This document shows positions 18,322 through 23,955 of a stretch of 64,000 nt of DNA, in pieces (position 1 is the stretch's first letter; each line of letters begins with the position of its first letter). The DNA is taken from positions 62,001 through 126,000 of the forward strand of contig CANJMI010000016.1 of the NCBI GenBank assembly GCA_947475525.1. Direction: 5' to 3'. The notes under the pieces were generated by a model. That model was not told where the DNA came from. It saw nothing but the letters and a program-made list of their open reading frames with translations, and ran no database searches. The stretch comes from Polyangiaceae bacterium (lineage in GTDB: Bacteria; Myxococcota_A; Polyangia; Polyangiales; Polyangiaceae). Position numbers and translations under genes: made by a program.

Positions 18322-19152
18322 TCACATGAAACGTCGGCTGAGCTTGGCGACGATGGCCTGGTAGCCCGTGGGGGCAATGCGGACCAACGCGTCGAGCATG
18401 CGAGCGTCGCTTCCGATGAGGACGCGTCGCTTGTTTTTTTCGACGGCGCGAAGGATCTGTTTTGCCGCCTCTTCGGCCGAGGTGCGGAACATGCGCTCGA
18501 ACGAACCGCGGCTGCCCTTCGGATCGAGAATGCCGAGCGTAGTCAGGCTGTCGTCGATGCGCGCGGCCTTCAAGATGTTGGTGCGAATTCCGCCGGGATG
18601 GACCGACGTGGCGCTGACCTTTGCGCCCGAGATCTCGAGCTCCTGGCGGAGCGACTCGGTGTAGCCGCGTACAGCGAATTTGCTCGCGTTGTACGCACTC
18701 TGCCCAGGGATCCCCGCGAGGCCGAAGCAGCTCGAGACGTTGACGATGTGCCCATCCCTCGATTGGCGTAAGTGCGGCATGAACGCCTGGGTGCCGTGAA
18801 TCACACCCCAGAAGTTGATGCCCATCAGCCACTCGAAGTCTTCGATGGGCGCGCCCTCCGCGCTCGCTGCAAGTGCGACGCCGGCGTTGTTGATGACAAC
18901 GTTGCAGCCGCCGTGAGCCTTCGCGACCGTCTCGGCCCACGCGAACACTTGGTCGCGCTTGGCGACGTCAACCCGCTGTGCCGTAACGGTTGTCCGGTGG
19001 CGGAGCGCGTCCGCGGTGGCGGTTACGGTGGCCTCGTCGATGTCGGAGAGCGCAAGCTTGGCTCCACGGTCCGCGAGGGCGTACGCGAGGGCGCGACCAA
19101 TCCCCGAGCCGGCGCCGGTAATGGCGACGACTTTGTCTTGGAATGATTTCAT
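18322..19152 (-). CDS. SDR-family oxidoreductase coupled to the BVMO-hydrolase
   Basis: 276 residues: TGAGSGIGRALA cofactor site, NNAGVALA, catalytic YNASKFAVRGYTESLRQEL and a C-terminal extension common in SDRs acting on hydrophobic alcohols and ketones. Its ATG overlaps the stop of the monooxygenase-hydrolase gene as ATGA, indicating translational coupling. By analogy with BVMO pathways, it could oxidise a secondary alcohol to the ketone used by the monooxygenase. That role is inferred from placement. Confidence 0.87.
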   Translation of the reverse strand: MKSFQDKVVAITGAGSGIGRALAYALADRGAKLALSDIDEATVTATADALRHRTTVTAQRVDVAKRDQVFAWAETVAKAHGGCNVVINNAGVALAASAEGAPIEDFEWLMGINFWGVIHGTQAFMPHLRQSRDGHIVNVSSCFGLAGIPGQSAYNASKFAVRGYTESLRQELEISGAKVSATSVHPGGIRTNILKAARIDDSLTTLGILDPKGSRGSFERMFRTSAEEAAKQILRAVEKNKRRVLIGSDARMLDALVRIAPTGYQAIVAKLSRRFM

Positions 19153-21728
19153 GATTGGGAGGCTCCGGTGACGCGCTCAGGCGCAGCGGAGTCCCGGTCG
19201 TAGCGCACTCCGCCTACGTGCGCGCGCAAATCCGCGGCGACCGATTCGAGCGCCCTTCGACATGCGCGACTGACCGCAAGCATGTGGATGAAGCCGTGAA
19301 CAAGGCCGTCCATGCGCCGCAAGCGCGTCGGCACACCCGCGGCTTCGAGGCGGCGCGCGTAGTTCTCGCCTTCGTCGCGAAGCGGATCGAAGCCGGCGGT
19401 CACGATCAGCGCGGGGGCAAGCCCGCTAAGCTCGGTCTCGAGGCCGGGATCGGCGGTGACGTCAGGCGTGCCGTAGCGTTCCCCCCGGTATTTGCGGGCA
19501 AACCATTCGAGGTCGCTCGCTTCGAGGAAGAAGCCTTCGCCAAATTGTGAGACCGAGGGGAAACTCCGCGTACGGTCGATGGTGGGGTAGAGGAGCAGCT
19601 GCAACGCCGGCCGAGGGAGTCCGCGGCGCTTCGCTTCTTGCGCGACGACGGCCGCGAGGTTGCCGCCCGCGCTGTCGCCCGAGACGACAATACGGCTCGG
19701 ATCCGCCCCGAGGCTCTCGGCATTCGCGCATGCCCATTCGTAGGCCGCCACACCGTCCACGACCGCGGCTGGGTGCGGGTGCTCGGGCGCAAGCCGATAA
19801 TCGATCGAGAGCACGTGGACCCCGGCTTCGCGGCAGAGCACGCGGCACGGCGCGTCGTGCGACTCGAGATCGCCGAGAACGAAACCGCCTCCGTGGTAGT
19901 AGACCACCAATGCCGCGCGCTCTCCGTTTTCGGGAACGTAATGGCGCGCGCGCACGTGGGGGTTGATGGTGAGGTCGCGCACCGCCGCGACGGCGACGAC
20001 GGGGCCCGCCCCTGTAACGGCGTCCCGGCGCAACCGCGCCCGCGACTCGACGATCGAGATGCTCGTGAGACCCGGCGAGCCGGTAAGCTTGCGCACAGCG
20101 AGGATCGCTTGCAGCTCGGGTTCGAGCGTGAGCCCGTGGCGGACGAGCGGTCTCGGGGCGAGCCAGCGCGCAGGCAGACTCGTGATGGCCCGCCCTGCGA
20201 GCATCTCGATGCGCGATTTAAGCGGCAGCATGACCGGGGCGTTGCGGCGTTCTTCGACGAGGTAGTCGGAGGCCTCGAAGCGGCGCGCACGTCGGATGTA
20301 GCTGAAGGTGTAGCCTGGCCAGAGCGTCGAGTTTCGGCCTGTTTTATCGAGGTACCAACTCGTGCAGCCCGTTGCCCAAACCGTGGTGGCGAGGCCCCGG
20401 TCGATCTCCGCGACGTAGCGGGCTTCCGCGGCGACGCTCGGCTCGACGGCCGCGGCCTGCGTTGCGTCGAGGTGGCGCAGCGCGCCGAGCAAGTGTTCGA
20501 CCTGCGCCTCGATCATCAAGATCATCGACGAGTGCCCGAGCCCCGTATTCGGACCGGGGATCATGAAGAAGTTTGGAAAGCCCGGCACCGACGTCCCGAG
20601 GTAAGCGCGCATGCTGCCGTCCCACGTCTCATCGAGAGAACGTCCGTCGCGCCCTCGAACGCATTTGGCGAAGGGCATGCCAGTGACGTCGAAGCCGGTT
20701 CCGAAGATCAGCGCGTCGAGCTCGTGTTCGCGGCCGTCGCTCGTGCGGACTCCGCGCTCGGTGACTTCGGCTATCGCGGTCGTCTCGACGTGCACGTTCG
20801 CGCGAGTCAGGGCGGGGTAGTAGTCATCGCTCACGAGCACACGCTTGCAGCCCATCCGGTAGCGCGGTCGCAGCTTTTCGCGGAGCGCGGGGTCCGGTAC
20901 CGCGCCGTCGAGGTAGAGCGCGGCCACCTTCTGGGCGAGCTTGCCGAGCTCCGGCTGCAAGAACACGGTGCCCACGAGTTCGCGGCGCAAATAGATCGAG
21001 CTGCGAACCCAGCGGCGCGCGACGCTCGAGCGGGCAAGCACGCGTTTGTAGGTCTCACCGAAGGCGACGTCGTTGCGTGGCAAGACCCATGGCGGTGTGC
21101 GTTGAAACACCGTGAGTTTTTCCACGACGGGCTGAATCACCGGGATGAACTGCGCGGCCGACGCGCCCGTGCCGACGACGCCGACGCGTTTGTCAGCGAG
21201 GTCGTAGTCATGCTGCCAGCGGGCCGAGTGAAACGAACGCCCGGCAAAACGCTCGATCCCCGGCAGCGAAGGCGCAGTGGGTTCGCTGAGCGCGCCAACG
21301 GCCGAGACGAGCACGTCGGCTGTGAAGGGTCCGGCGTTCGTGTCGAGTTGCCAGTGCTGCCGGGTGGCGTCCCAGCGCGCTTCGAGAATGCGGTGCTCGA
21401 AGTGGATGTACGGGCGTACGCCGAAACGGTCCGCGCAGTCCTCCAGGTAACGTCGGATCTCGGCCTGAGGTGAGTACGTGTGACTCCAGTTTGGATTCGG
21501 CGCGAACGAGAAGCTGTAGAGGTGCGACTCGACGTCGCAGGCGCATCCTGGATAGGTGTTCTCGCGCCAGACGCCGCCGACGTCCTGGGCACGCTCGAAG
21601 ATGGCGAAGTCGCGACGCCCCTCCTGCAAGAGCCGGATCGCCGCGCCAAGCCCCGCGAAGCCCGTGCCGATGATGGCCACGCGGAGGTGTCGGTTCACGA
21701 TGGTCGTTGGGAGAGGCATGGTCGTCAT
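19149..21728 (-). CDS. Baeyer-Villiger-type monooxygenase fused to an HSL-family alpha/beta hydrolase
   Basis: 859 residues. Residues 1 to about 500 are a flavin monooxygenase: FAD motif GTGFAGLG at 21-28, the BVMO fingerprint FxGxxxHxxxW at 161-171 (Phe161, Gly163, His167, Trp171, then Gln where Pro or Asp is usual) and a second Rossmann motif at 186-191. Residues about 530-845 are a hormone-sensitive-lipase-type hydrolase: oxyanion HGGG at 612-615, nucleophile Ser686 in GDSAGG, Asp781 in DPLRDEG and His811 in VHGF. Both active sites look complete. A BVMO turns a ketone into an ester and the hydrolase would split it in the same chain. The next gene is a coupled SDR. Confidence 0.9.
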   Translation of the reverse strand: MTTMPLPTTIVNRHLRVAIIGTGFAGLGAAIRLLQEGRRDFAIFERAQDVGGVWRENTYPGCACDVESHLYSFSFAPNPNWSHTYSPQAEIRRYLEDCADRFGVRPYIHFEHRILEARWDATRQHWQLDTNAGPFTADVLVSAVGALSEPTAPSLPGIERFAGRSFHSARWQHDYDLADKRVGVVGTGASAAQFIPVIQPVVEKLTVFQRTPPWVLPRNDVAFGETYKRVLARSSVARRWVRSSIYLRRELVGTVFLQPELGKLAQKVAALYLDGAVPDPALREKLRPRYRMGCKRVLVSDDYYPALTRANVHVETTAIAEVTERGVRTSDGREHELDALIFGTGFDVTGMPFAKCVRGRDGRSLDETWDGSMRAYLGTSVPGFPNFFMIPGPNTGLGHSSMILMIEAQVEHLLGALRHLDATQAAAVEPSVAAEARYVAEIDRGLATTVWATGCTSWYLDKTGRNSTLWPGYTFSYIRRARRFEASDYLVEERRNAPVMLPLKSRIEMLAGRAITSLPARWLAPRPLVRHGLTLEPELQAILAVRKLTGSPGLTSISIVESRARLRRDAVTGAGPVVAVAAVRDLTINPHVRARHYVPENGERAALVVYYHGGGFVLGDLESHDAPCRVLCREAGVHVLSIDYRLAPEHPHPAAVVDGVAAYEWACANAESLGADPSRIVVSGDSAGGNLAAVVAQEAKRRGLPRPALQLLLYPTIDRTRSFPSVSQFGEGFFLEASDLEWFARKYRGERYGTPDVTADPGLETELSGLAPALIVTAGFDPLRDEGENYARRLEAAGVPTRLRRMDGLVHGFIHMLAVSRACRRALESVAADLRAHVGGVRYDRDSAAPERVTGASQS

Positions 21729-21815: not shown

Positions 21816-22748
21816 TCAGTTCTTGTCGTTGAAGAGCGTCTCGATGAGCTTCTTTTTCGCGGGCGAGGCTTGGTAGAACGCGTACTTTGTGTGGCTCGCG
21901 AGACCGTTCAGCCCGGTGAGCCAGTCTTTCACTTGGCTCTGCAGCGAGGCCTTCATCTTCACGTTCACGTAGATCGCGTGGATGTGGCGCGCTTCGCTGG
22001 AAGGCCACCCATCCTTTCCAGGATCACGAAAAAATGCCGCAAATCCGTGGCTCGCGAGGTTGTCGACGAGGACCTTGACCTGCGCGTTCGTCAGCGTCTT
22101 GACCGAGAGATCGGTGGCCGCAGAATACGCCAATCCGTCGATCGTTCCGTCTTGCGCGTGCGTGCCCGCGGAGGCGGCAAAACTCCCAATGGTCTGCGAA
22201 ATCATTGCCGCGGTGATGCCGACGCAGCGGAGGTGGTCCGAGGCCGCGGGGGCGAGGCCGTACTTGAGCTGGGCCTTGTGCGCGCACTCGGGGAGGACAA
22301 GTTTGCAAAAATCGTCCGAGCCGGTGGCGACGAAGCAGCCGTGTTCGCACGGGGTTGCCGCGGTCGCGGGGCCCGGGCCATCGCAGTGGTAGAGCGTCTC
22401 CGCGACGCCATCCGCTACCTTGTCGCCGGCGCAATACTCGCCGACCTTCGCCGTGTCCTCGCAGCTCGGCGAAGCGGGAGCCACGCCACCCGCGCCACCG
22501 AGCCCGCCCGCGCCACCGAGTCCGCCTGCGCCACCGAGTCCGCCCGCGCCACCGAGTCCGCTCGCGCCGCCGAGTCCGCCCGCGCCGCCGACGGATGTGA
22601 ACGTGCCCGTTCCGGGGACGCCCTCCGAGGTGTTCGCGTCGTCCGCGCCGCACGCGATGAGTCCAATCCCGACAACGACGAGCGCCACGCGTCCGTGCGA
22701 GGAGCGCGCTCGTGCGACCTTGGAAACCGTGGCCTTACATTCTCGCAT
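21816..22748 (-). CDS. Gly-rich-linker lipoprotein of unknown function
   Basis: 310 residues from the ATG at 22748. The signal peptide ends VVGIGLIAC, followed by a linker of GLGGAG repeats (about 35 residues) and a domain of about 220 residues with several Cys residues (ADGVAETLYHCDGPGP, CEHGC) and a C-terminal helical part. No family was recognised. The gene's 5' end overlaps the 3' end of the ATP-grasp gene by 14 bp on the same strand, so they are probably co-transcribed. Confidence 0.78.
   Translation of the reverse strand: MRECKATVSKVARARSSHGRVALVVVGIGLIACGADDANTSEGVPGTGTFTSVGGAGGLGGASGLGGAGGLGGAGGLGGAGGLGGAGGVAPASPSCEDTAKVGEYCAGDKVADGVAETLYHCDGPGPATAATPCEHGCFVATGSDDFCKLVLPECAHKAQLKYGLAPAASDHLRCVGITAAMISQTIGSFAASAGTHAQDGTIDGLAYSAATDLSVKTLTNAQVKVLVDNLASHGFAAFFRDPGKDGWPSSEARHIHAIYVNVKMKASLQSQVKDWLTGLNGLASHTKYAFYQASPAKKKLIETLFNDKN
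22491..22592 (-). repeat. 18-bp tandem repeat, about 5.7 units
   Basis: Units of the form CGCGCCACCGAGTCCGCC on the plus strand, repeated with few substitutions. They encode the GLGGAG linker of the surrounding lipoprotein. This is a second, unrelated 18-bp linker repeat like the one at 6327-6466. Confidence 0.9.
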
Positions 22749-23955
22749 GGACGTGGATCGTTCCGGCGGCCTCTTCAGCCATCGCCAAGGTGGCGTCGTG
22801 GTCGGGATGACGCACGACGATGTTGCCGTCACTCAAAAAAGTCTTCGTCCAGTCGCGCCGCGGGGCCCCCAATGGGAGGATGTCGAGGCGTGCCACGTAG
22901 GCGCGGTATTTCGCGAGGAAGGCGTCGACGCCTTGAGAGCCTGCGATGCGACCTTTCCCCTTCGCGCGTTTGAAGATGATCGCCGCGTGGTACTTTTGCT
23001 CAGGCGGAGCGGCCACTTCGCCTGTGACGACGGCGCGCGCCCAATCGACGAACAGATCGATGTCGCCCGCGTAGTTCATCAAATCGACCATGCTGGCGCC
23101 GGGGGCACGGCACGCGATCTCCCCGAAAATGGGCTCGCCGTCTTGCGTGCGAAACCACTCCATGTGGGTGAAGCCCGTGGTCATGCCGAGGGCGGTGATG
23201 GCCTTGCGGCCCATGGCGACGGCCGCCGCGAGCTCGGGGCTCTCGCGGTCGCGCAGCGTCATGATGATCGGGCTTATCCACTCCTTTTTCCGGGCTTCGA
23301 GCACGTTGGGGTAGTAGCGCGAGCAGCTCTCGTAGACGGGCACGCCGTTTACGCAGATCGTCTCGTAGGTGTACTCGTCGCCTTCGATGAGCTCCTCGAC
23401 GCTCGCCTCCTCCACGTGGCGGGTGCGCGCGAGTACGGCCTCGAATTCCTCCCTTGACGAGGCGCGCCAGGTGTCCGCCGAACCGGCTCCGGCGATCGGC
23501 TTGAAGATCAGCGGATAGCCAACACGCTCGGCCGCCGCCCATGCTTCATCCCGCGTTTGCACGCGCTCGGACTTCGGTACGCGCACCCCCGCGGTCGCCA
23601 CACGCTCGCGCATCGTTACCTTGTCGCGAAAGCCCATCACCGCATCGCGACGCATCCCGGGGAGCCCCCAGCGCTCGCGTAGATCGGCCGCAAGCAGCAT
23701 CAGCGGCTCCCAGTTCGTCTCGATCCTGTCGACCGGACGGCCTCGCAGCCACGCCTCGAGTCGTCGCGTGACCTCGGGCTCGTCGAGTGCGCTCGGCACC
23801 TGGAGATAATCGCTGAGCGCGCTCCGCAGTCCTGCGGGCAAGGCGCCTAGGGGCGTGTCTCCAACGCCGAAGACGGTCGCCCCCACCTCGGCCAAGCCGC
23901 GGGCGAACTGCTGCATTTCGGGCGGGTAACCGGGCGACAAAAAGAGGATGCGCAC
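22735..23955 (-). CDS. ATP-grasp domain protein
   Basis: About 406 residues beginning MRILFLSPGYPPEM when started at the GTG at 23955 (another GTG at 23973 adds six residues). There is a Rossmann-like N-terminal domain of about 100 residues and then an ATP-grasp fold: RDKVTMRERVATAGVRVP, the ATP-binding YPLIFKPIAGAGS, EELIEGDEYTYE and metal-site FGEIACRAPGASMVD. It probably ligates a carboxylate to an amine or carrier. The substrate is unknown. It sits just downstream of PhoD and upstream of a lipoprotein on the same strand. Confidence 0.82.
   Translation of the reverse strand: MRILFLSPGYPPEMQQFARGLAEVGATVFGVGDTPLGALPAGLRSALSDYLQVPSALDEPEVTRRLEAWLRGRPVDRIETNWEPLMLLAADLRERWGLPGMRRDAVMGFRDKVTMRERVATAGVRVPKSERVQTRDEAWAAAERVGYPLIFKPIAGAGSADTWRASSREEFEAVLARTRHVEEASVEELIEGDEYTYETICVNGVPVYESCSRYYPNVLEARKKEWISPIIMTLRDRESPELAAAVAMGRKAITALGMTTGFTHMEWFRTQDGEPIFGEIACRAPGASMVDLMNYAGDIDLFVDWARAVVTGEVAAPPEQKYHAAIIFKRAKGKGRIAGSQGVDAFLAKYRAYVARLDILPLGAPRRDWTKTFLSDGNIVVRHPDHDATLAMAEEAAGTIHVHARM

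Follow-up and report, generated by a model that had tools for sequence, protein, structure and literature searches.

A rare, conserved and recurrent fusion of a Baeyer-Villiger-type monooxygenase with an HSL-family esterase, encoded next to an SDR in a myxobacterial genus

Within a 64,000-nucleotide stretch of a Polyangiaceae genome (contig CANJMI010000016.1, positions 62,001 to 126,000; hereafter the window), we found one uninterrupted reading frame whose 859-residue product classifies as a single chain made of a Baeyer-Villiger monooxygenase (BVMO)-type enzyme and an esterase of the HSL family. The fusion is real, conserved, rare and recurrent, and it represents the fused form of a BVMO-esterase(-dehydrogenase) module of known kind, one that public sequence data already contain. 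Two Pfam domains, FMO-like (residues 16-348, 1.2e-20) and Abhydrolase_3 (residues 608-814, 2.6e-71), lie on the one chain, in agreement with the single-chain protein proposed in the initial annotation, and the start codon of the following SDR gene overlaps the TGA of the fusion by four bases (ATGA), a detail that had likewise been read correctly. The protein is probably a bifunctional catabolic enzyme, derived from two fused co-transcribed genes, that converts a ketone through an ester to an acid plus an alcohol. In such a route the SDR would most likely oxidise a secondary alcohol to the ketone, the N-terminal half, with FAD, NADPH and O2, would insert oxygen beside the ketone carbonyl to give the ester, and the C-terminal Ser-Asp-His hydrolase would split the ester into acid and alcohol; both activities, the order of the steps and a substrate shared between them are what we infer from sequence. 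Features and their coordinates are given in Table 1.

Table 1. Features of the fusion gene and the SDR gene in the window, and the unfused operon of Rubrobacter radiotolerans.
Feature	Position	Strand	Basis or location
Fusion gene, 859 aa, ATG start	19149..21728	(-)	ORF; Pfam/NCBIfam; congener with equivalent fusion
Monooxygenase half, residues 1-490	20259..21728	(-)	Pfam FMO-like; PDB sequence matches; fold
Junction, residues 491-535	20124..20258	(-)	gapless, conserved in G003 and G001
Esterase half, residues 536-859	19152..20123	(-)	Pfam, NCBIfam, PDB sequence matches, fold
Classical SDR, 276 aa	18322..19152	(-)	ORF; Pfam; ATGA overlap with fusion stop
GTGFAG, first Rossmann motif (FAD), residues 21-26	21651..21668	(-)	
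GGVWRENTYPGCACD, second BVMO fingerprint, residues 51-65	21534..21578	(-)	
FAGRSFHSARW, fingerprint FxGxxxHxxxW, residues 161-171	21216..21248	(-)	
GTGASA, second Rossmann motif (NADPH), residues 186-191	21156..21173	(-)	
R296 of GCKR (293-296), place of BVMO catalytic Arg	20841..20843	(-)	alignment-conserved
HGGG oxyanion-hole motif, residues 612-615	19884..19895	(-)	
GDSAG nucleophile elbow, residues 684-688, Ser686	19665..19679	(-)	
Asp781, catalytic triad	19386..19388	(-)	
His811, catalytic triad	19296..19298	(-)	
Rubrobacter radiotolerans BVMO-hydrolase-SDR operon	RRADSPS_RS15110-15120; L089 3196-7490		plasmid

Examination of the chain located every motif that the initial annotation had listed (the fingerprint at 161-171, HGGG, Ser686, Asp781 and His811) at the residue given there, and added to that list both Rossmann motifs, GGVWRENTYPGCACD and the Lys-Arg pair K295-R296. 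Residues 1-490 were assigned to the class B flavoprotein monooxygenases, type I BVMO-like: two Rossmann motifs flank the fingerprints, the FxGxxxHxxxW core is present as FAGRSFHSARW, and the pattern [A/G]GxWxxxx[F/Y]P[G/M]xxxD together with the catalytic Arg is represented by GGVWRENTYPGCACD and R296, the latter corresponding to a residue named as catalytic in MymA (PMC9044951). The strict form of the fingerprint requires P or D after its Trp. Here Gln172 follows W171, and because this Gln takes the place of P/D the half was filed as BVMO-like by sequence; the same position is Asp in the congener G003 and Gln in the relatives L006 and L009. The best PDB sequence matches of this half were steroid, phenylacetone and cyclohexanone monooxygenases. 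Residues 536-859 were placed among the HSL or bacterial family IV esterases (Abhydrolase_3), carrying HGGG, GDSAG, Asp and His in a predicted alpha/beta-hydrolase fold. The top-scoring NCBIfam models for this half, LipP1 and chloramphenicol hydrolase, both remained below cut-off, and membership in the LipP1 subfamily (NF058653) was rejected on its score of 325 bits against the curated cut-off of 350.

Structure prediction yielded a model of the fusion with pLDDT 81 and pTM 0.59 when based on an alignment, and pLDDT 34 when based on the single sequence. Residues 12-493 were predicted to adopt a BVMO fold, matching CHMO/PAMO at Z ~38 with rmsd of 2.6-2.9 over ~470 residues, and residues ~532-840 an HSL-esterase fold, with Est8, EstE1 and EST2 at Z ~40 over 531-839. 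The linker at residues 497-576 is mostly below 50 pLDDT, so the model informs on each fold by itself and not on how the active sites lie to each other. The SDR carries the motifs TGAGSGIG, NNAG and YNASK of a classical SDR (adh_short, 1.5e-48). The Asp after its strand 2 (LSDID) suggests use of NAD rather than NADP, while NADPH use by the monooxygenase half is suggested by K295 and by R210-T211, which come after strand 2 of its second Rossmann fold; these cofactor readings draw partly on what is generally known of both families. Given LSDID in the SDR versus the NADPH signs in the BVMO, a closed cofactor loop would not be expected, suggesting that regeneration of NADPH for the BVMO half need not depend on the SDR.

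A frameshift that had joined two genes was named at the outset as a result that would undo the single-chain claim, and an artefact would be favoured by the fragmentation of the source genome into 59 contigs. Two congeners, assembled independently, cross the junction without stop or gap; the frame is kept in both, ruling out a frameshift, and we assign practically no probability to an assembly or sequencing artefact of any kind. In the first congener (G003) the fusion is 71% identical over residues 9-836, lacks a stop and shares an ATGA with the next gene, the SDR, as in the window, and the protein alignment holds only two gaps (10 and 9 residues), both in G003. In the comparison of the window with G003, the BVMO and esterase halves each showed a dN/dS (NG86) of 0.22 and the junction of 45 residues one of 0.40, indicating that purifying selection runs through the junction. 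In the genome G002 the contig stops within the BVMO half.

The second congener, the MAG Polyangiaceae bacterium ZH-3nov15-113 (G001; L001/L051), keeps the fused frame with 603 aa counted from the first likely Met (L051 1284-3275), in a conserved neighbourhood of an ATP-grasp gene, a match to window positions 21816-22832, the fusion, the SDR and a GluQ-like tRNA synthetase gene. The product of 21816-22832, which thus lies beside the fusion in both genomes, is a 338 aa protein with a glycine-rich repeat near its N-terminus and no Pfam match. In G001 in-frame deletions have removed 287 residues from the monooxygenase half, among them the two fingerprints, the NADPH motif and the catalytic Arg, and a search of this genome gave no further close BVMO. 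Its esterase half shares 77% identity with that of the window, at a dN/dS of 0.12 versus 0.43 for the BVMO remnant. Judged by these ratios the esterase is of value by itself in G001, and since the hydrolase is constrained without a working BVMO half, the two steps would not be obligately coupled. The deletions come from a single MAG and may reflect misassembly; the intact frame and the surrounding synteny argue otherwise. The fused gene of G001 also shows a short tandem repeat, SPTTSSG, just ahead of the esterase HGGG region.

Full-length fusions in the phylum were restricted to G000 and G003, of one genus, in a scan of 379 genomes that took the best two candidates per genome with matches at E 1e-100 or better and that could overlook a weakly matching or degenerate fusion like the one in G001. 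Unfused counterparts were found more widely. Within the same family, the BVMO (52%) and the hydrolase (47%) of G008 are encoded by two genes that share a few bases. A plasmid of Rubrobacter radiotolerans resembles the window in its three gene families, their order and 4-base overlaps (two in the plasmid), with identities of 56% (SDR), 47% (hydrolase) and 44% (BVMO), but differs in having three separate genes and a divergent TetR regulator; arsenic-resistance genes adjoin the operon as well. Nocardia uniformis shows the gene order BVMO-hydrolase, and the BVMO-hydrolase-SDR set occurs in several phyla. The SDR orthologues, which follow the BVMO-hydrolase pair in Rubrobacter, stand directly after the BVMO gene in G011, G014 and G348 (56-61%), with no hydrolase between. 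The pre-fusion state was likely one of overlapping separate genes, still visible in these relatives, and the fusion would have been made from two genes whose co-transcription we infer. Elsewhere, at L083 3607-6300 and L084 8900-10678, a long ORF with a C-terminal SDR domain lies beside a BVMO gene and may join a hydrolase to an SDR as in PRK05855, which would make it a further fused pair in this kind of neighbourhood.

The search for the two-domain architecture in other genomes, suggested as a check in the initial annotation, returned fusions in Amycolatopsis, Burkholderia and G610 besides the congeners, ruling out an architecture unique to the window's genus. The fusion of Amycolatopsis orientalis has 796 residues, and a search of 200 genomes of its order yielded no other; those of Burkholderia arboris, B. 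stagnalis and B. cenocepacia lie in open frames of ~855 codons, and that of G610, from a set of 250 Burkholderiales genomes, spans 824 codons. All share with the window's fusion the two Pfam domains, their order and a chain of ~800 residues, but are only ~34-47% identical to it and have separate origins on the BVMO tree. On this tree the window fusion clusters with myxobacterial and other unfused genes (0.967), the Amycolatopsis fusion with other, unfused actinobacteria (0.995) and the Burkholderia fusions with unfused Marinobacter and Nevskia (0.985). Each fusion thus groups with unfused relatives, which points to at least three origins, in bacteria, of a fusion with one domain order.

In Burkholderia a GMC oxidoreductase gene stands in for the SDR; it precedes the fusion, in an abutting or overlapping frame. 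Alcohol oxidation, BVMO and esterase would again be brought together, in support of the proposed route, and the alcohol-oxidising partner recurs with its family differing (SDR versus GMC). On a Burkholderia glumae plasmid (L093 2270-5560), a single ORF of 1097 aa encodes both GMC and BVMO, and an alpha/beta hydrolase comes next in a frame that overlaps it; this may be an alcohol-to-acid route divided over two chains, or else the product of a stop loss and a frameshift.

Several observations speak against the favoured ketone-to-acid enzyme, namely the Gln after W171, the sign of NAD use in the SDR, the persistence of the G001 hydrolase without the BVMO step and the BVMO-SDR pairs of G011, G014 and G348. 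The last two would also fit halves that act on different substrates, the fusion having arisen neutrally from overlapping genes of an operon and being retained for their co-expression and not as a cascade, and the overlapping unfused pairs, which are likely ancestral, would need one small deletion to become fused. We consider this fairly unlikely, as the BVMO-hydrolase-SDR set is found in several phyla and three fusions have one domain order. A fingerprint ending in WQ rather than W[P/D], and a Pfam match to the general FMO-like family, would suit an EthA/FMO-type S- or N-oxygenase instead of a true Baeyer-Villiger enzyme, joined to a hydrolase for unrelated esters or xenobiotics such as the two sub-cut-off NCBIfam models might indicate. 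Both BVMO fingerprints, the catalytic Arg and the PDB matches argue against such an enzyme, and EthA, MymA and Rv0565c, which are of similar length and kind, have Baeyer-Villiger activity in vitro; we hold it to be very unlikely. A one-chain ketone-to-acid cascade that was selected three times independently, with a labile or toxic ester or lactone passed directly between the sites, is in our estimate unlikely. For the bifunctional catabolic enzyme that we favour, the substrates are perhaps linear or medium-chain ketones by analogy with EthA and MymA; linear ketones are the first candidates because EthA, MymA and Rv0565c prefer them.

Characterised pathways use separate genes for the two steps, as the initial annotation stated, exemplified by acmA/acmB in Gordonia and mymA/lipR. 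In Gordonia sp. TY-5 the acmA-acmB operon encodes a BVMO and an esterase fed by secondary alcohol dehydrogenases and follows the same route from alcohol through ketone and ester to acid plus alcohol; unlike the fusion, AcmA and AcmB are two proteins, acetone is the substrate and the dehydrogenases are encoded outside the bicistronic operon (PMC6215540). A BVMO-esterase-alcohol dehydrogenase route also serves subterminal alkane oxidation in Thalassolituus. The mymA operon of M. tuberculosis is similar in that a MymA/EthA-type BVMO gene (Rv3083) is described as followed by the hydrolase/esterase gene lipR (Rv3084); in contrast to the fusion, mymA and lipR are separate and form part of a longer locus, Rv3083-Rv3089, that is linked to lipids of the envelope. 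Presumably an SDR gene follows mymA and lipR there. A literature search for a described natural BVMO-esterase fusion found none, a weak negative with most subscription journals outside its coverage.

Engineered fusions of a BVMO with an alcohol dehydrogenase run alcohol-to-ester cascades (PMC9354712). A natural, repeatedly evolved BVMO-esterase fusion offers a ready test of whether joining consecutive steps of a BVMO pathway helps, and at the G001 locus the monooxygenase half is already partly knocked out by nature. The fusion also gives a functional link between the BVMO and esterase families.
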